This document shows, piece by piece, positions 1-8,762 of a stretch of 51,477 nt of DNA. The translations under genes were made by a program, and so were the position numbers. The stretch comes from Bacteroidota bacterium (lineage in GTDB: Bacteria; Bacteroidota; Bacteroidia; Bacteroidales; VadinHA17): assembly GCA_011049175.1 (NCBI GenBank), contig DSCJ01000130.1, forward strand, positions 1 through 51,477. The letters are read 5' to 3'. The stretch's first letter is position 1, and each line of letters starts with the position of its first letter. The notes under the pieces were generated by a model, which was not told the origin of the DNA, made no database searches, and was given only the letters and a program-made list of their open reading frames with translations.

Positions 1-191
1 AGGAAAAAGCCTGTTGTCGTTGCAGTGGGGTGTTTTTCAACTTCCCGGGGTCAATCCGGAAGGCTGGATTACGCAAAGCGTGATCCATTATAGGAGAGCT
101 TACCAGGAAAAAGCCTGTTGTCGCTACGCTCCAACTGGTCTTTTCCCTTTCAGTCCCTTATGGAAGCAAGCTTCCAACGGTCCTGAAAGGG
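1..191. repeat. Nested inverted and direct repeats beside tRNA-fMet
   Basis: No gene is visible here. A 19-nt direct repeat (AGGAAAAAGCCTGTTGTCG) occurs at 1-19 and 105-123. A 14-nt perfect inverted repeat (CTTTTCCCTTTCAG) lies at 140-153 and 183-196. It encloses a second hairpin, TGGAAGC-AA-GCTTCCA, at 161-176. The motif CCAGGAAAAAGCCTG near 104-118 is the reverse complement of sequence at 218-232, next to the tRNA terminator. The arms overlap the terminator, so alternative pairings are possible. The first repeat begins at base 1, so the array may continue outside the window. Confidence 0.7.
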
Positions 192-229
192 AAAAGCCCG
201 ATACGCCTTTCGGCGTATCAGGCTTTTTC
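192..229 (-). terminator. Rho-independent terminator of tRNA-fMet
   Basis: On the minus strand, directly after the tRNA CCA, lies a long hairpin. The arm GCCTGATACGCC pairs with GGCGTATCGGGC (one G-U pair) around a GAAA tetraloop. It is flanked by A-runs upstream and TTTT downstream. Confidence 0.85.
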
Positions 230-230
230 C

Positions 231-305
<75 letters not shown>

Positions 306-317
306 ATGTTCAGGGTG

Positions 318-348
318 CAAATTTAATATTGTTTTTGCTGGATGCAAA
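318..348 (-). promoter_or_regulatory. Promoter of tRNA-fMet
   Basis: On the minus strand TTTG (345-348), a 19-nt spacer and TAAATTTG (318-325) match the Bacteroidota -33/-7 consensus exactly. The tRNA 5' end at 305 lies 13 nt beyond the -7 box. Confidence 0.8.
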
Positions 349-616
349 ATATATTATGTAAAAATTATCATTACTATACTCTTTTGTGTTCATTCGAAAA
401 ATATATGCCGTTGAATCCGGAAGTTTTTGTTCCGGTTGCTTAAAGCAGCGCTGGAAAAATATATTGTCTGCCCCTGAAAAAAAAATCGTACACCGTATTT
501 TGGATTTAAAAATTATTTAATATTGTGCTTTCAGACAGTAAATAGCGTTGTTTCTGCAATTATTTGTATAACAATAACATAGTACTTTTTTTGAGTGAGA
601 TGTTCTCAAAAAAAAC
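349..616. other. AT-rich intergenic region with kamA leader inverted repeat
   Basis: This stretch between the tRNA promoter and kamA holds no convincing ORF. The one clear structure is a perfect 10-bp inverted repeat (TTTTTTTGAG at 586-595, CTCAAAAAAA at 605-614, 9-nt loop) ending two bases before the kamA start codon. In RNA it would place the translation start against a hairpin. I found no full-consensus promoter. The nearest -7-like sequence is TACTTTTT at 583-590, with TTTG only 16 nt upstream. Confidence 0.5.
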
Positions 617-1894
617 ATGAAACCCCTGAATAAAATGATGCTGTCTCAGCGACCTGATGAGGACGTGGAGACAGAGCCTCCAGGTAAAGTGGTTTTGACC
701 CGCCCTCGTGTACGTAAAGCGGTCACCCTCCCAAGGATAAAAAACAACCTCCCTGTCAGTGACAGAAGCCTTGCCTTCATGGCCCGGCATTTTCCTGATG
801 CCTCCCTACAGGAATGGAACGACTGGCACTGGCAACTGAAGCATTCCTTTACCACCTTCGACCAGCTCTCCTCCGTGCTGGATCTGACGGAAGAGGAATT
901 GCTGTGTACACGCGAGAAACGCAAATTGCCCCTGCGCATTACGCCTTATTTTGCCGGTGTTCTTGAAACGGGGGATCCTACTTCCGCCCTACGACGCACC
1001 ATGGTCCCTGATATGCGGGAACTGCATGCGGCGCCCGAAGAGCAATCCGACCCTCTGGGCGAGGAGAACCAGAGTCCACTGCCCCAGTTGGTGCACCGTT
1101 ACCCCGACCGGGTTCTGTTCCTGACCACCGGCTTTTGCTCGGCCTATTGCCGTTACTGTACCCGGAGCCACCTGGTTTCAAAAAAGGATAAGGTGCATGC
1201 AGGCATTATCCAGTGGGACAAAGCCATTGAGTACATCCGTCGGCATCCGGAAGTGCGGGATGTGCTCCTTTCCGGGGGCGATCCTTTGACCCTGTCCGAT
1301 GCCCGACTTGAATACCTGCTGATGAAATTACATGCCATTCCACATGTGGAGATTATCAGAATAGGCTCGAAAGTACCTGTGGTAATGCCCCAGCGTATTA
1401 CCCCCGCTCTGGTCAGGATGATGAAGAAATATCATCCGCTGTATATGAGCATCCATTTCACACACCCCGACGAACTGACACCGGAAACCGCTCATGCCTG
1501 TAACATCCTGGCCGATGCAGGTATTCCCCTGGGAAGCCAGACCGTTTTGCTGAAGGGGATCAACGATGAGGTGGAGATTTTCAGGAAACTGATGCAGGGG
1601 CTGCTGAAAATACGGGTAAAACCCTACTACATTTACCAGTGTGATCCAATCCCGGGGTCCTCGCATTTTCGAACTCCGGTATCAAAAGGACTGGATATCA
1701 TCCGGGGACTCAGGGGATTTACTTCCGGTTATGCGGTGCCGCATTTTGTGGTAGACGCTCCCGGAGGCGGGGGAAAAATCCCCCTGCTTCCGGAATACGT
1801 GGTGGGCAGGAACGAAAAGGGTTACCTCCTGGTGAATTACCGGGGGAAAGTGTACCTGTATCCTGAACCCGCTACAGGGGAACACTCAACTTAA
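617..1894 (+). CDS. kamA: Lysine 2,3-aminomutase-type radical SAM enzyme
   Basis: The 425-residue protein belongs to the KamA family, which moves the alpha-amino group of an amino acid to the beta carbon using a [4Fe-4S] cluster, SAM and PLP. The cluster motif is C174-SAY-C178-RY-C181, followed by the SAM-binding GGDPL at 220-224. The PLP lysine is K387 in APGGGGK. D343 and D380 align by spacing with Asp293 and Asp330 of clostridial lysine 2,3-aminomutase, which bind the lysine epsilon-amino group. Glutamate 2,3-aminomutases lack both, so (S)-beta-lysine is the inferred product. It is the first gene of a five-gene operon; the next starts 33 nt downstream and the rest overlap. EF-P beta-lysylation by an EpmB-like enzyme is less likely: no epmA is nearby, and the ligases here are of another class. 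Confidence 0.88.
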   Translation: MKPLNKMMLSQRPDEDVETEPPGKVVLTRPRVRKAVTLPRIKNNLPVSDRSLAFMARHFPDASLQEWNDWHWQLKHSFTTFDQLSSVLDLTEEELLCTREKRKLPLRITPYFAGVLETGDPTSALRRTMVPDMRELHAAPEEQSDPLGEENQSPLPQLVHRYPDRVLFLTTGFCSAYCRYCTRSHLVSKKDKVHAGIIQWDKAIEYIRRHPEVRDVLLSGGDPLTLSDARLEYLLMKLHAIPHVEIIRIGSKVPVVMPQRITPALVRMMKKYHPLYMSIHFTHPDELTPETAHACNILADAGIPLGSQTVLLKGINDEVEIFRKLMQGLLKIRVKPYYIYQCDPIPGSSHFRTPVSKGLDIIRGLRGFTSGYAVPHFVVDAPGGGGKIPLLPEYVVGRNEKGYLLVNYRGKVYLYPEPATGEHST

Positions 1895-1927
1895 GCTGTT
1901 CCTGATAATAATCCTGACCTCTACACT

Positions 1928-3667
1928 ATGTTCGTGATCAGAAGGATCGGCGATGATATCATGCCGGCCGACAGAGATGCTGTTCTGCAGGTGCTGGATA
2001 TTCTCAGGAGTCATTTCCCCGATGTGGACGAGAAAAAAATCCTGGAAATTCCCGAGCAGCTCAAAAACCCGCTCAAATACCGGTTCCGTACCACCCTGCT
2101 GGTGGCTGAAAACCGTTCGGGCAGAGTACTGGGATTTGCCCTGCTCATGTATGCTTCCGACCTGAAATTCTGTTATCTCGATTATATTGCCACACGGAAA
2201 GATGTGATTGCAGGAGGAATAGGCAGTTCCCTTTACGAACGGGCAAGGAATGAAGCCCTTGACCTGGGGGCTACGGGATTGTTTTTTGAATGCCTCCCCG
2301 ATGACCCGGCCCTGTGCACCGACCCACAGGGTCTGGAACAGAACAGGGCCCGCCTTCGCTTTTATGAACGTTTCGGAGCATTCCCCCTGTTGAATACCCG
2401 GTATGAAACCCCGGTCAATCCGTCCGATTCATGCGCTCCATATCTTGTATGTGATTTTCTGGGAAAAGAAGGGACCATGAGCAGTGACCGTGCCTGCAGG
2501 ATCATCCGGGCCCTGCTGGAACGCAAATACCCCGATTACTGCCCGGAGGAATATATCCGCGAGGTGGTCAATTCCGTGACCGATGACCCTGTGGTGCTGA
2601 GGCCTCCCCGATATATAAGGAAAAAAGAACCCATCCCTTCCGTCCCCGGGGCACCCGTCATAAGAATGATTGTGAACGACCGGCATGCCATACATCATGT
2701 GCACGAGAGAGGATATGTCGAATCACCGGTGAGGATAGCTTCTATCTACCGGGAACTGATGGCATCGGGTTGTTTCAGGGAAGTGCCTGCGGAAAGATTT
2801 TCTGAAAGACACATCCTCGAGGTGCATGATGCGGGGTATGTGAAGTACTTCAAAAGGATCTGCGAACAACTGCCGGCCGGGAAATCGGTCTATCCCTATG
2901 TTTTTCCCATCCGGAATGCTGCCAGGCCCCCTGCCGACGATTCGGTGCGGGCTGGTTATTACTGCATGGATACATTTACGCCCCTGAATAAAAATGCTTA
3001 CCTGGCTGCCCGCAGGGCGGTAGACTGCGCCCTAACCGGAGCCGTGCACATTCTGGGAGGAGAAAAAGCCGTGTATGCCCTGGTCAGACCCCCCGGTCAT
3101 CATGCCGAACGGAAAGTGTTCGGAGGATTCTGCTATTTCAATTCCGGAGCCGTGGCCGCTCATTATCTCAGCCGGTACGGCCGGGTGGCCATGCTCGATA
3201 TAGATTACCACCACGGGAATGGACAACAGGATATTTTTTATGCCCGTCCCGATGTGCTGACCGTTTCCATACACGGTCATCCGTCCTTTGCCTATCCTTA
3301 TTTCAGCGGGTATGCCGACGAAAGGGGGGAAGGTTCTGCCGTGGGAACCAACATAAATTTCCCCCTGAAAGAAACAACCGGCGGCGAAGAATACCGGAAC
3401 ATCCTGGCAAAGGCTTTGCGCAGGATCAGGTTGTTCAAACCCTCTTTTCTTGTAGTGCTTCTCGGTCTCGATACGGCACAGGGGGATCCCACCGGAACCT
3501 GGAGCCTGCGCGCCGGTGATTTTCAAAAGAACGGCGAGATGATCGGAAGCATGCGTATTCCCCTGCTGCTGGTGCAGGAAGGGGGATACAAAAACCGGAT
3601 CCTGGGACAGAACGCCAGGGCTTTTTTTAACGGATTGATGAACACTTTATATCAGAAAGAAAAATGA
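1928..3667 (+). CDS. GNAT acetyltransferase-HDAC-family deacetylase fusion
   Basis: This 579-residue protein has two opposing activities. Residues about 1-170 form a GNAT fold, with an acetyl-CoA loop around AGGIGSSLY (95-103). Residues about 240-575 form a class II HDAC/acetylpolyamine amidohydrolase domain. The HDAC site looks intact. The catalytic histidines are H391-H392 (PPGHHA). The zinc ligands are D426 and H428 (DIDYHHGNG) and D515 (GLDTAQGDP). The transition-state Tyr is Y554 (EGGY). Acetylpolyamine amidohydrolases remove acetyl from aminoalkyl chains such as polyamines. Placed after a lysine aminomutase, a plausible role is adding and later removing an N-acetyl group on beta-lysine or a product of it. 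That role is inference. The stop codon overlaps the next start (ATGA). Confidence 0.85.
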   Translation: MFVIRRIGDDIMPADRDAVLQVLDILRSHFPDVDEKKILEIPEQLKNPLKYRFRTTLLVAENRSGRVLGFALLMYASDLKFCYLDYIATRKDVIAGGIGSSLYERARNEALDLGATGLFFECLPDDPALCTDPQGLEQNRARLRFYERFGAFPLLNTRYETPVNPSDSCAPYLVCDFLGKEGTMSSDRACRIIRALLERKYPDYCPEEYIREVVNSVTDDPVVLRPPRYIRKKEPIPSVPGAPVIRMIVNDRHAIHHVHERGYVESPVRIASIYRELMASGCFREVPAERFSERHILEVHDAGYVKYFKRICEQLPAGKSVYPYVFPIRNAARPPADDSVRAGYYCMDTFTPLNKNAYLAARRAVDCALTGAVHILGGEKAVYALVRPPGHHAERKVFGGFCYFNSGAVAAHYLSRYGRVAMLDIDYHHGNGQQDIFYARPDVLTVSIHGHPSFAYPYFSGYADERGEGSAVGTNINFPLKETTGGEEYRNILAKALRRIRLFKPSFLVVLLGLDTAQGDPTGTWSLRAGDFQKNGEMIGSMRIPLLLVQEGGYKNRILGQNARAFFNGLMNTLYQKEK

Positions 3668-4674
3668 AGATCGGAATGACCTATGATCTGAGGGAAGAAT
3701 ACCTGGCCATGGGATATACCCGGGAAGAAACGGCCGAGTTCGACGGAATAGAAACCATCGAAGCCATTGACGGTGCGCTCCGCAGAATGGGCTTTGAAAC
3801 AGACCGGATCGGCCACGCCCGGAACCTGGTAAACCGCCTGGCCGCCGGCCATCGGTGGGACCTGGTATTCAATATTGCTGAAGGATTGTACGGGAGCGGC
3901 CGGGAAGCCCTGGTTCCGGCCCTGCTCGATCATTACCTGATCCCGTATGTGTTCTCGGGCCCCCTGGTGATGGCCCTTACCCTCGACAAAGCCCTGGCCA
4001 AACTGGTGGTTCGGGAGGCAGGTGTGGCCACCCCCGATCATTTTATTGTTCGCAAGCCTGAGGATATCGCCCTGATTTCCCTGCCTTATCCCCTGTTTGC
4101 GAAACCCCTGGCAGAAGGTACCGGCAAGGGCATCAGCGGAAGCTCGGTGATCAGGTCTCCCCGGCAGCTGAAACAGGTATGTACCGGATTGCTTGAACGG
4201 TTCCGACAGCCCGTGCTGGTGGAAACCTATCTCGAGGGAAGGGAATTTACCGCCGGAATAGTAGGGACAGGCGTTGATGCCCGGTGCATCGGGGTGATGG
4301 AGATCGTGCTGAACAGGCATGCGGAAAAAGGGGTGTATTCCTATGCCAACAAGGAAGAATGGGAAAAAAGGGTGAGATACACCCTGCCTGATCCGGAAGA
4401 GGAAAAAATCGTGAAGGAGGTGGTACTGAAAGTATGGCTGGCGATTGGAGGGGAAGATGGGGGAAGGGTAGATATCCGTTTCGATCGGCAGGGGATCCCT
4501 CACTTCCTGGAAGTGAACCCGCTGGCGGGGATACATCCTACCCATTCCGACCTGCCTATTCTGGCCCGGCTGAACGGAATTGATTACCACACCCTGATGA
4601 CCATGATCATGGAATCGGCCCTGAAAAAAGTCAAAACAACTGCCTGTGAAAAAAGTGCTGATTCTGGTCAATGA
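3664..4674 (+). CDS. ATP-grasp ligase, D-Ala-D-Ala ligase family (first copy)
   Basis: The 336-residue protein resembles D-alanine-D-alanine ligases, which activate a carboxylate as acyl phosphate and join it to an amine. The N-terminal domain (about 1-95) carries DLVFNIAEG, typical of the family. The central part has the ATP-grasp lysine region (PLFAKPLAEGTGKGIS) and a glutamate-rich strand (VLVETYLEGREFT). The C-terminal metal site is RVDIRFD followed by FLEVNPLAGIHP. It is not a housekeeping Ddl by context: it sits between a GNAT-HDAC fusion and a second ATP-grasp gene. It overlaps the upstream gene by 4 nt and the downstream gene by 29 nt. The substrate is unknown; an amino acid or beta-amino acid ligase is inferred. 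Confidence 0.82.
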   Translation: MKIGMTYDLREEYLAMGYTREETAEFDGIETIEAIDGALRRMGFETDRIGHARNLVNRLAAGHRWDLVFNIAEGLYGSGREALVPALLDHYLIPYVFSGPLVMALTLDKALAKLVVREAGVATPDHFIVRKPEDIALISLPYPLFAKPLAEGTGKGISGSSVIRSPRQLKQVCTGLLERFRQPVLVETYLEGREFTAGIVGTGVDARCIGVMEIVLNRHAEKGVYSYANKEEWEKRVRYTLPDPEEEKIVKEVVLKVWLAIGGEDGGRVDIRFDRQGIPHFLEVNPLAGIHPTHSDLPILARLNGIDYHTLMTMIMESALKKVKTTACEKSADSGQ

Positions 4675-5611
4675 CCCCGGTAAGGAAGCTTCCCCCGATG
4701 TGCAGGATGTACTGATGCAGGCTGGTGCGGTGGAAAATGTACTGCGTGAAATGGATGCGGAGGTAAAACGGTTTTCTGTGTCACTGAATCTGGAAGCACT
4801 GGATTCCCTGCTGCAGAAAGATCCTCCCGATCTGGTTTTCAACCTGGTGGAATCACTGGCCGGCAGGGGAGCTCTGTTACATCTGGTGCCGGCCCTGCTG
4901 GAGGTCCGGTACATCCCCTTTACGGGAAGCGGTTCCTACGGGTTGTACCTTACCACCCATAAAGTGCGGGCGAAGAGGATCATGCGGCAGCACGGGATAC
5001 ATACTCCCGACTGGATAAGCCTTCCGGCGGATACCTTTCCCGAAAAGGGGAAAAGGTATATCATGAAGCCGGTTTCAGAGGATGGATCGGCCGGTATCCA
5101 CGATGCTTCCCTGGTACAGGCTGGGGAACTAACCCGGGAAATCCTGAGCGGGTCGACAACTCCAGCTTATTTCCTGGAAGAGTATCTTCCGGGAAGGGAA
5201 TTCAACCTCTCGGTGATAGCGGGTCCGGAAGGACCGCAGGTATTGCCAGCGGCAGAAATGCAGTATCTGGATTATCCGGCTGACAAGCCCCGCATTCTGG
5301 GCTATGCAGCCAAATGGGAGGAAAACAGTTTTGAATACCGCCATACGGTTCGCCGTTTTGAAATGGCAGAAACCGACAGGGTGCTGGTCCGGGAAATGGA
5401 AAGAATCAGCCTGCAATGCTGGCATTTGTTTGAAGCCAGGGGATACATCCGGGTGGATTTCAGAACCGATGCGGAGGGCAATCCCTGCGTGATAGAGGTC
5501 AATGCTAATCCATGTATATCCCCTGATGCGGGATTCCCGGCTGCCTGCCTGCATGCCGGCATTGGGTACAGAGAAATGATCCTGAGAATTCTAAACGATC
5601 TTACTGTATGA
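4646..5611 (+). CDS. ATP-grasp ligase, D-Ala-D-Ala ligase family (second copy)
   Basis: A 321-residue second ATP-grasp protein, clearly diverged from its neighbour. The start is GTG at 4646 (protein begins MKKVLILVNDPG), inside the end of the previous gene. Family marks are DLVFNLVESLAG in the N-terminal domain, the nucleotide lysine in YIMKPVSEDGSAGI, the acidic strand YFLEEYLPGREFNLSV, and the metal-binding YIRVDFRTD plus VIEVNANPCISP. Two successive ligases suggest either two sequential amide bonds or a heteromeric enzyme. The first gene is about equally long, so neither is a fragment. The stop overlaps the next start (ATGA), which implies translational coupling. The substrate is unknown. 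Confidence 0.82.
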   Translation: MKKVLILVNDPGKEASPDVQDVLMQAGAVENVLREMDAEVKRFSVSLNLEALDSLLQKDPPDLVFNLVESLAGRGALLHLVPALLEVRYIPFTGSGSYGLYLTTHKVRAKRIMRQHGIHTPDWISLPADTFPEKGKRYIMKPVSEDGSAGIHDASLVQAGELTREILSGSTTPAYFLEEYLPGREFNLSVIAGPEGPQVLPAAEMQYLDYPADKPRILGYAAKWEENSFEYRHTVRRFEMAETDRVLVREMERISLQCWHLFEARGYIRVDFRTDAEGNPCVIEVNANPCISPDAGFPAACLHAGIGYREMILRILNDLTV

Positions 5612-6096
5612 ACACAAACGATCTGGTATTCCGTACAGACCCGGTGGCCGGTGATCCGGAGCGGGTGGAAGAAATGGTAAAGGCTACCGGATTTTTCCGG
5701 GAAGATGAAACGGCGGTCGCCGTGGAACTGGTCAGGGAAAGACTTGAAAAAGGCAGAAAAAGCGGGTATGAATTTATTTTTGTCGGGAAAGACGGTGAAA
5801 CGGTGGCATACTGTTGCTATGGCCTTATTCCCTGTACGCTTCACAGCTACGATCTGTACTGGATCGTGACCCATCCTGCGCATATGAAGCAGGGGATTGG
5901 CAGCATCCTGCTGGTGAAAACCGAACAAGCCGTGAGCCAGGCCGGAGGCAGGGGTATATATGCGGAAACCTCGTCAAGAGTACAATACCTTCCTACCCGT
6001 TTGTTTTATGAGAAAAACGGGTATCGCATAAAAGCCCGTTTTGAAGACTTTTATGCTCCGGGGGATGACAAGGTGGTATATGTAAAATACCTGTAA
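5608..6096 (+). CDS. GNAT family N-acetyltransferase
   Basis: The 162-residue single-domain GNAT has the acetyl-CoA motif in HMKQGIGSILLVKTE (about 92-106) and the C-terminal FYEKNGY signature. It closes the kamA operon, overlapping the previous ORF by 4 nt and followed by a hairpin terminator. One precedent is AblB, which acetylates beta-lysine in archaea; the kamA partner makes such a role possible, but it is not shown. It could equally act on the ligase product. Confidence 0.78.
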   Translation: MNTNDLVFRTDPVAGDPERVEEMVKATGFFREDETAVAVELVRERLEKGRKSGYEFIFVGKDGETVAYCCYGLIPCTLHSYDLYWIVTHPAHMKQGIGSILLVKTEQAVSQAGGRGIYAETSSRVQYLPTRLFYEKNGYRIKARFEDFYAPGDDKVVYVKYL

Positions 6097-6099
6097 CAA

Positions 6100-6130
6100 A
6101 AAGAGGCTGTATTTGCTGCCTCTCTTTTCT
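6100..6130. terminator. Bidirectional terminator between kamA operon and YIP1 gene
   Basis: AGAGGC (6102-6107) and GCCTCT (6118-6123) pair around a 10-nt loop. A T-rich run follows on the plus strand, and TTTTTG follows on the minus strand. It lies between two converging genes. Confidence 0.7.
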
Positions 6131-6134
6131 CCTC

Positions 6135-6815
6135 CTAATCGTTGCCAGAATCTTCCAATTCCTCCAGGGATTGTTTAAGGTCCTTCTCTAGGGATTCGAT
6201 ATCGGTTCCCCAGCGGTCCATGTACCGATCGGCAGCTCTTCTGGCTGTCAGGCCGATGATCAGCATGATGGCGGCAATAACCACCAGTACGATGCCTATT
6301 ACTTTGGTGGTGCTTTCCTTGGCCTTCAATGATTGAACCAGGGCATGGTACAGCATCCAGATCCCGTACAGGTTGATGATCAATGTGATCACCGCACCCA
6401 GTACCGAACTGATTCCCGAGGCAAATCCAAAGAAAGCGCTGATAGGCATCAGGACCATCAACGAAGCCGTTACCCGCATGCTGGGCTCAAAATCGGTTTT
6501 TCCTCCGCAAATGGCCGAAAGTACCAGTACAATGATGGCGCCGATGAACAAACCGATAATAGCGCCGATAATGGCCCAGATAAAGGCCATCACTCCCACA
6601 GCACTGCCGAACAGGCCTCCGGTAACCGCTCCTACCTTCAGGAGGCCCCACAGCAGGGCAAAAATACCGGCAATAACCCCGTAAACCAGCGCTTTGAGAA
6701 TAGGTTCTCCCAGGCCACCCTCTGTTTTCATGGAGGCAAAATAGGCTTTGGGGTTAAACAATGAATCCTTCGATTCCTTGATCAGATTGTTGAAATTGAA
6801 GCTACCGTTGCTCAT
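6135..6815 (-). CDS. YIP1-family integral membrane protein
   Basis: The 226-residue protein has a soluble N-terminus (FNFNNLIKESKDSLFNPKAY), then about five hydrophobic helices between residues 40 and 190, many rich in Gly/Ala/Ile, and an acidic C-terminal tail. The NP-x-A-Y-F-x-S-M-K region before the first helix is typical of bacterial YIP1 (DUF1282-like) proteins. No enzymatic motif is seen and the function is unknown. The gene appears monocistronic, ending at the shared terminator next to the kamA operon. Confidence 0.7.
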   Translation of the reverse strand: MSNGSFNFNNLIKESKDSLFNPKAYFASMKTEGGLGEPILKALVYGVIAGIFALLWGLLKVGAVTGGLFGSAVGVMAFIWAIIGAIIGLFIGAIIVLVLSAICGGKTDFEPSMRVTASLMVLMPISAFFGFASGISSVLGAVITLIINLYGIWMLYHALVQSLKAKESTTKVIGIVLVVIAAIMLIIGLTARRAADRYMDRWGTDIESLEKDLKQSLEELEDSGND

Positions 6816-6950
6816 AGTGGTTAGATGTTATAGTTGGAGAATGCAAGATAAAAAATTTTACAGGGATATAAAATTTTCTGATGGCTTTCAGGTGGATAAT
6901 ATTACCGGTTCATTGAAAAGGGAACGCTCCGGGGGCCGGATTGCCCTCTG

Positions 6951-7526: not shown

Positions 7527-8762
7527 TCAGAAAGAAATGCCTGCCTCGAACATCAGTCCCCGGAATCCGGCATCGGCCATCCGGTAGGTGACAAAGTCGC
7601 GGTACTGCTGGTTAACATATTCCAGCCGGGTGATGATGTTTTCTGTCAGTTTCCATCCGGCAACAGCCTGAAACCTGGTTACTTTTTCATCGTTCAGATT
7701 GGCTGCCGTATTGTAGCGTACCCCGCCGTAAAACTGTTTTTCCTTTCCGAAATAATACAGTCCTTCTGCTGCCCATTGCGTAAATCCGTAATCGGCAGCT
7801 CCGAAAGCGGTGGTTCCCCGCGTGTTTTCCCATGTGGCGAATACTTTCAGTCCGCCCGCTTTTACGAACAGATTGGCCATCAGTGAATGGTTCTTATCGG
7901 TAAATCCCGGCCCCCAGTTACCTGTCATGTGGCTGCTGGCGGGGTCCACATCGGAAGCATTGCCGGTTTGCGGTTTCATCACCAGGTAATATCTGGATCC
8001 GGTACGGTCGCCGTTGTAAAGGGAACCGAAGTGGTGACGGGCATTATGAAATCCCGACAGGGTGGCACGGAGTCTCCATGTGTTCCCGAATTCGCCGTCG
8101 TAACCCGCTTTCCAGTGAAAAGCCAGTTCTTCGTGCAGGTTGTATGCGGTATAGGTGCCCGATCCGGCATGGTAACCTGAAAGGGCCGGTTTCAGTGATC
8201 CGCTGTTCAGTCCGGCCATCAGCAGGATACCACTGCGGCGGAAAAGGATCTCTGCTGCCGGGGCCGTGGTGAAGGATTCCATGATGTAGTTTCCGACAAA
8301 CGGATTGTTTATGATCCGTCCGTTATCCGACCGGCGGAAATGAGCATCGCCGAAATTCAGCTCCATCACGCCCACTTTGACGGTGGTGGATTCCATAATC
8401 CGGTCCAGAAAATCCGAATGCAGGAAAGGCAGGGCATCGATCAGCAGGTAGCCGCCCTTTACCCAGGCCTCCACATGATGCCTGGAAGACAGATAAGTGG
8501 TAAGGTTTACCCGGATTCCCGGCGCCAGGTCGGCTTTTACCACCAGGTTGGCTGTTGGCAGGTTGATCCCTTTTCCCAGGGGGATCAGCTCCAGGGAATC
8601 GGAATAATGCTCCAGCGACTGGTACTGGAGGGCGAAATCGGCCCCGATCTGTACGCGTACTTTTTCAAAATCATCTCCGGTGATCTTATCCGTTTCAAAT
8701 GTCTGGGCAGGCAAATTCAGGGCCATGCCCGAGATTGCCAGAAGGGTAAGCAGTTTTTTCAT
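7527..8762 (-). CDS. Outer-membrane porin-like beta-barrel protein
   Basis: The 411-residue protein has an N-terminal signal peptide (LLTLLAISGMALNLPAQ) and no lipobox. Alternating hydrophobic/aromatic strands follow (for example VRVQIGADFALQYQS and LFVKAGGLKVFATWEN). It ends in a C-terminal phenylalanine (FEAGISF), the outer-membrane assembly signal. The length and strand pattern resemble phosphate-selective-porin/alginate-export-type barrels, but the substrate cannot be inferred. It starts 39 nt after yceI on the same strand, so the two are probably co-transcribed. Confidence 0.72.
   Translation of the reverse strand: MKKLLTLLAISGMALNLPAQTFETDKITGDDFEKVRVQIGADFALQYQSLEHYSDSLELIPLGKGINLPTANLVVKADLAPGIRVNLTTYLSSRHHVEAWVKGGYLLIDALPFLHSDFLDRIMESTTVKVGVMELNFGDAHFRRSDNGRIINNPFVGNYIMESFTTAPAAEILFRRSGILLMAGLNSGSLKPALSGYHAGSGTYTAYNLHEELAFHWKAGYDGEFGNTWRLRATLSGFHNARHHFGSLYNGDRTGSRYYLVMKPQTGNASDVDPASSHMTGNWGPGFTDKNHSLMANLFVKAGGLKVFATWENTRGTTAFGAADYGFTQWAAEGLYYFGKEKQFYGGVRYNTAANLNDEKVTRFQAVAGWKLTENIITRLEYVNQQYRDFVTYRMADAGFRGLMFEAGISF

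Follow-up and report, generated by a model that had tools for sequence, protein, structure and literature searches.

The five genes encoded on the plus strand at positions 617-6096 of the window, namely the whole 51,477-nucleotide stretch of DNA analysed in this study, probably constitute a dedicated operon for an N-acetylated beta-lysine peptide or conjugate, in which gene A would furnish beta-lysine, genes C and D would form two amide bonds, gene E would acetylate, and gene B would serve as an optional addition.

The genome that contains the window as its contig 16 has a size of 3.24 Mb and a completeness of 98.1%. Its open reading frames A to E, the start and stop codons of which were checked, were assigned as follows. 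Gene A (617-1894, 425 aa) encodes a KamA-family radical SAM aminomutase, predicted to be an L-lysine 2,3-aminomutase; gene B (1928-3667, 579 aa) an N-terminal GNAT domain joined in one protein with an acetylpolyamine amidohydrolase (APAH)-type zinc deacetylase; genes C (3664-4674, 336 aa) and D (4646-5611, 321 aa, with a GTG start) the first and second ATP-grasp ligases of the D-alanine-D-alanine ligase (Ddl) fold; and gene E (5608-6096, 162 aa) a GNAT N-acetyltransferase. A gap of 33 nt separates A from B, and the subsequent genes overlap one another by 4 nt (B/C, ATGA), 29 nt (C/D), and 4 nt (D/E). Profile searches against Pfam and NCBIfam confirmed the families of all five products, and the originally predicted run with its last four genes overlapping was borne out by the positions of the reading frames and the Pfam assignments. 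Searching the window's first 20 kb, as well as seven homologous loci, for riboswitches with Rfam yielded nothing relevant.

The recurrence of the same families together in dozens of genomes, their conserved orders, and their fusions indicated that the run is more than a chance arrangement. Among 247 genomes sampled from the phylum to which the deltaproteobacterial locus L005 belongs, E was detected in 78 and C in 84, with both being present in 76 (two genomes had E only and eight C only; Fisher p 1.3e-51). When named genomes were scanned with D, five loci with adjacent A, C, and D emerged, which belonged to Bacteroidetes MAGs and one deltaproteobacterial MAG, in addition to the Chloroflexi locus L007 with a D-E pair alone; E adjoins A, C, and D at four of the five, and in the genome of L004 it is located on a separate contig. 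In the majority of the fetched loci, A, C, D, and E stand in a single run. The order A-C-D-E was observed at 23 loci, C-D-E-A at 15, and A-C-D-B-E at six, in addition to smaller classes, and since the loci were fetched via E or D, this tally is conditional on E or D while A was free to be missing. Furthermore, D and E form a single protein at six loci (L107, L116, L120, L123, L125, and L140), as do B and E at three (L108, L115, and L118). The pairwise divergences of A, C, D, and E correlated with r values of 0.72-0.87, as opposed to a maximum of 0.15 upon shuffling, although shared descent explains part of this correlation. The co-occurrence, gene order, and fusions thus supported the original prediction of a single pathway, and the search for conserved co-occurrence in other genomes, which could have spoken against it, did not. 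The idea of all five genes as one unit held in that the same families do recur together, but required modification in that the conserved unit, hereafter the core, comprises A, C, D, and E, with B being accessory.

Several loci deviated from this arrangement. C-D-E without A, or D-E alone, was found at L130, L139, and L007, and C and D may thus accept other building blocks. At L007 (6500-8195), which derives from a Chloroflexi MAG, a D-like ligase gene is followed by an E-like GNAT gene with neither A nor C, possibly representing a minimal form of the module. At L003, a gene for a 125-aa protein (6494-6871), which we take to be GxxExxY-like, is inserted between C and D, and the copy of E (8053-8448) is interrupted by an in-frame stop, whereas a different contig of the same genome carries another E-like gene that is intact (L064). 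A plasmid collection contained no copy of the core, and the ATP-grasp, HDAC, and GNAT relatives found in it were all remote. A plasmid of Bradyrhizobium barranii (NZ_CP088281.1; L059, 2204-6969) carries in a row genes annotated as lysine 2,3-aminomutase, gamma-glutamyltransferase, a 7TM-domain protein, and an ATP-grasp protein, perhaps a separate pathway combining an aminomutase with an ATP-grasp enzyme.

The product of gene A showed the Pfam domains Radical_SAM and LAM_C and scored 359 bits against the KamA subfamily model TIGR00238, above the cut-off of 199. Its sole match in the PDB was lysine 2,3-aminomutase 2A5H (E 1e-130). Residues C174/C178/C181, R183, D343, D380, and K387 were each at least 95% conserved among 55 loci, and in the alignment with 2A5H, R183, D343, D380, and K387 coincided with R134, D293, D330, and K337, of which the first three hold the substrate lysine and the last is the lysine that binds PLP. 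The CxxxCxxC motif, the PLP lysine, and the Arg and two Asp residues being all retained, the protein belongs to the KamA/lysine 2,3-aminomutase family. The pocket residues support, but fall short of proving, the use of lysine as the substrate. Its score of 458.2 bits against the AblA model TIGR03820 stayed below the curated cut-off of 525.4, so that A was not assigned as an AblA equivalog and its lysine specificity is inferred; likewise, EpmB, the enzyme for EF-P beta-lysylation (TIGR03821), was not indicated, with 251 bits against a cut-off of 369. The predicted conversion of L-lysine into beta-lysine, for which the original prediction had argued, was thus supported by the family and by the match of R183, D343, D380, and K387 to 2A5H. 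The genome of the window encodes two further KamA-like proteins, long and only remotely related, at 805-2784 of L149 (contig 57, 659 aa) and 511-2697 of L150 (contig 31, 728 aa).

Both ligases possess the Pfam domain Dala_Dala_lig_C. The AlphaFold2 models of C (pLDDT 82) and D (pLDDT 77), each built on six-row alignments, matched Ddl structures with Z scores of up to 29.6 and 27.7, respectively; the listed matches were all of the Ddl type, and other ligases may still fit. The ATP-grasp residues for Mg and ATP were conserved in both proteins (K109, K147, D270, E283, and N285 in C; K106, K141, D271, E284, and N286 in D), and the fold together with these lysines, the Asp, and the ExN motif placed C and D within the ATP-grasp enzymes of the Ddl fold. 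Such a fold would also be expected if C and D were ordinary or spare D-alanine-D-alanine ligases in a cluster for cell wall synthesis. In contrast to this explanation, however, their scores against the Ddl model TIGR01205 (111 bits for C and 80.7 bits for D) were far below the cut-off of 245.65, the GGxSxE-type substrate motif of Ddl was absent from both, so that neither was classified as a D-alanine-D-alanine ligase, the N-terminus of C has conserved residues specific to its own family, and a canonical Ddl with a score above the cut-off (265.8 bits) is separately encoded on contig 48 of the same genome. We consequently regard a cell wall role of this kind as very improbable. As judged from these sequence features, the two amide ligases that had been predicted would be distinct from the housekeeping Ddl, and we favor their assignment to the beta-lysine pathway, in which C and D would use ATP to activate carboxylate groups and create two amide linkages, so that a short beta-lysine-containing peptide or conjugate would result, as the fold and the gene context suggest.

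The product of gene E matched Acetyltransf_7 and Acetyltransf_1 in Pfam, and its nearest solved structure was 2R7H (E 3e-35), the name of which, 'putative D-alanine N-acetyltransferase', is an annotation rather than an assayed function. E would acetylate an amino group on either a building block or the product, and its membership in the core supported the acetylation step of the original prediction. AblB was not indicated: an E homologue matched TIGR03827 weakly, at best with 19 bits as against a cut-off of 205, and in none of 41 core genomes searched was the AblB cut-off exceeded, whereas three control genomes did exceed it. Any acetyl group would thus be expected to come from E or from the GNAT portion of B. 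Since KamA beside a GNAT is the arrangement of ablA-ablB, and beta-lysine derivatives are known solutes (PMC1224877; PMC9337991), the genes might alternatively direct the plain synthesis of the osmolyte N-epsilon-acetyl-beta-lysine by AblA and a substitute for AblB, with the ligases serving separately. This alternative is unlikely, given that both ligases co-occur with E, that one of them is fused to it, and that E is not AblB as described above.

In the case of gene B, Pfam searches identified Hist_deacetyl (248 bits) and a GNAT domain, the N-terminal GNAT half scoring weakly, and the PDB matches were acetylpolyamine amidohydrolases (E ~1e-64). Among 11 sequences, D426, H428, D515, H391, H392, and Y554 were conserved, which correspond to the zinc ligands, the His dyad, and the Tyr of the HDAC site, and these site residues place B among the putative acetylpolyamine amidohydrolases. 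The APAH-type C-terminal half with its intact site suggests that the substrate is probably a small acetylated amine and not a protein. Full-length B was present in 21 of the 247 genomes, or about a quarter of the core genomes, and all 21 carried the core (taken here as the presence of C or E; p ~4e-11); in G440 and G472, B is encoded elsewhere in the genome, away from the core. The B of the window shared 61% identity with that of L109 and 55% with that of L038. Meanwhile, B was sought in 41 genomes that carry the core (or, in the case of G400, its D-E part alone), and in 12 of them, seven of which are at least 98% complete, no stretch of B found a match at E<=1e-10; the core must thus complete the product there without a deacetylase of this family. 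B therefore belongs to this pathway, and the pathway does not require it.

These distributions bear on the role of the acetyl group, which the original prediction had regarded as a temporary protecting group. According to that scheme, the acetyl group would be added to shield an amine during ligation and then be stripped off by B, and the fusion of a GNAT with a deacetylase in B, the occurrence of B=E fusions, and the restriction of full-length B to core-bearing genomes are all in line with it. However, most core genomes lack B and 12 of 41 lack any relative of it at the above threshold, so that a general dependence on B is impossible, and temporary protection was not borne out as a general rule; dependence is possible in the B-carrying genomes, and we consider the scheme improbable as a whole. 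It is more likely that the acetyl group is a part of the product and that B adjusts or recycles it. As such an optional module, B would remove and perhaps restore the acetyl group on a small molecule, for turnover or tailoring rather than obligatory deprotection.

The neighborhoods of the core provided further hints. A LysA-like decarboxylase gene (295.4 bits against a cut-off of 297.9) adjoins the core in L005, and relatives of it do so in L101, L102, L103, and L106, which hinted at lysine supply. Recurrent neighbors that we named RecG, DnaG, GpsA, and PlsY by reading the sequences, not by family searches, were set aside as housekeeping synteny. At L121, a gene for a PuuR-related HTH-cupin regulator (5599-6135) lies directly upstream of A, with relatives at L126, L131, and L134. 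A small DMT_6 (DUF486) membrane protein, a possible exporter of the product, is encoded after D or between D and E at L004 (7962-8330), L103 (10066-10413), and L106 (9236-9709). At L110, genes for an ATP-grasp-like protein, a PLP decarboxylase, and citrate synthase (10-3868) are situated just upstream of the core, and the core of L108 is adjoined by genes for a citrate synthase and for a similar decarboxylase, which is a distant relative of FslC from rhizoferrin synthesis. Both the membrane protein and the genes around L110 and L108 would suit an exported secondary metabolite, such as a siderophore-like compound or a signaling peptide. Across most of the fetched loci, though, no regulator, transporter, receptor, or NRPS gene was found to recur, and the core extends through large portions of lineages and in one group shows synteny linked to recG, unlike the sporadic distribution of secondary metabolism; export of this kind therefore appeared quite unlikely. 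An intracellular metabolite fits better than an antibiotic with the spread over whole lineages and with the lack of NRPS genes or a general transporter nearby, and by analogy we weakly prefer, as a guess, a compatible solute within the cell. A crude proxy for salinity, the ratio of acidic to basic residues of proteins, did not differ between 30 core-positive and 15 core-negative genomes (p 0.84) in what was a weak test; neither the riboswitch scan nor this acidity proxy thus spoke for the solute role.

In a concatenated tree, the window grouped with L002, L003, L004, and L006 (support 1.0), and this group was nested in a larger set of mostly deltaproteobacterial loci (0.99). In the sample of its own phylum, genomes outside its class have C-D-E-A adjoining a recG-like gene, and nearly all the listed genomes of its own class and order gave no match. 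This placement, combined with the absence from near relatives, suggests lateral transfer of the operon.

More broadly, we tentatively propose, as a possibility somewhat short of an even chance, that the core represents a widespread and ancient bacterial pathway to a class of N-acetylated beta-lysine peptide not described so far, which would be a novel compatible solute or a metabolite resembling a cofactor, with its acetylation state being set in some lineages by a dedicated bifunctional acetyltransferase/deacetylase. No published description of this gene set was found in the literature covered, which did not include the 2009 amidoligase survey by Iyer et al. (Mol BioSyst), a work that may list it. 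If the proposal is true, approximately one third of the sampled genomes of the deltaproteobacterial group, as well as several other bacterial lineages, would make a metabolite missing from current pathway maps, which ATP-grasp ligases would build out of a beta-amino acid. Acetylated small-molecule metabolites would then have one more biosynthetic route in addition to those of N-acetylglutaminylglutamine amide (NAGGN) and acetyl-beta-lysine, or beta-lysine would have a use not seen before, and many proteins wrongly annotated as 'D-alanine-D-alanine ligases' would have to be renamed. Owing to the compact, separable, and frequently fused genes, the product is open to a direct search by expression and mass spectrometry.

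Among known systems, non-ribosomal peptide synthesis by ATP-grasp ligases has precedent (PMC2922099). C and D resemble Ddl/VanA-type enzymes in the fold and the ATP-grasp catalytic residues, but differ from them in the missing GGxSxE motif and in the loop following ExN (EVNPLAG and EVNANPC, versus EVNTIPG in Ddl). B resembles the acetylpolyamine amidohydrolases of the bacterial HDAC class in its APAH-type sequence and in the residues for zinc binding and catalysis, but is distinguished from them by the fused N-terminal GNAT and the linkage to the KamA/ligase core. The ablA-ablB system for the solute N-epsilon-acetyl-beta-lysine likewise combines a lysine 2,3-aminomutase with a GNAT, whereas in the present operon E is not AblB, the KamA protein is below the AblA cut-off, and two extra ligases are present. 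In the synthesis of NAGGN, Ngg acetylates one glutamine and joins a second glutamine to it (PMC8070244). The Ngg model TIGR03103 did not appear among the listed matches of the window's D and E or among the best 25 of 34 matches for C, and a D=E fusion scored 19 bits against its cut-off of 569. The operon also differs from the Ngg/AsnO system in having two Ddl-type ligases and a KamA protein and no asparagine synthase. What the two have in common is the coupling of an acetyltransferase with a ligase, which in NAGGN synthesis gives an N-acetylated dipeptide non-ribosomally and here appears as the frequent fusion of E to the ATP-grasp ligase D; these D=E fusions repeat the design of Ngg, making NAGGN the nearest working analogy for the pathway proposed herein.
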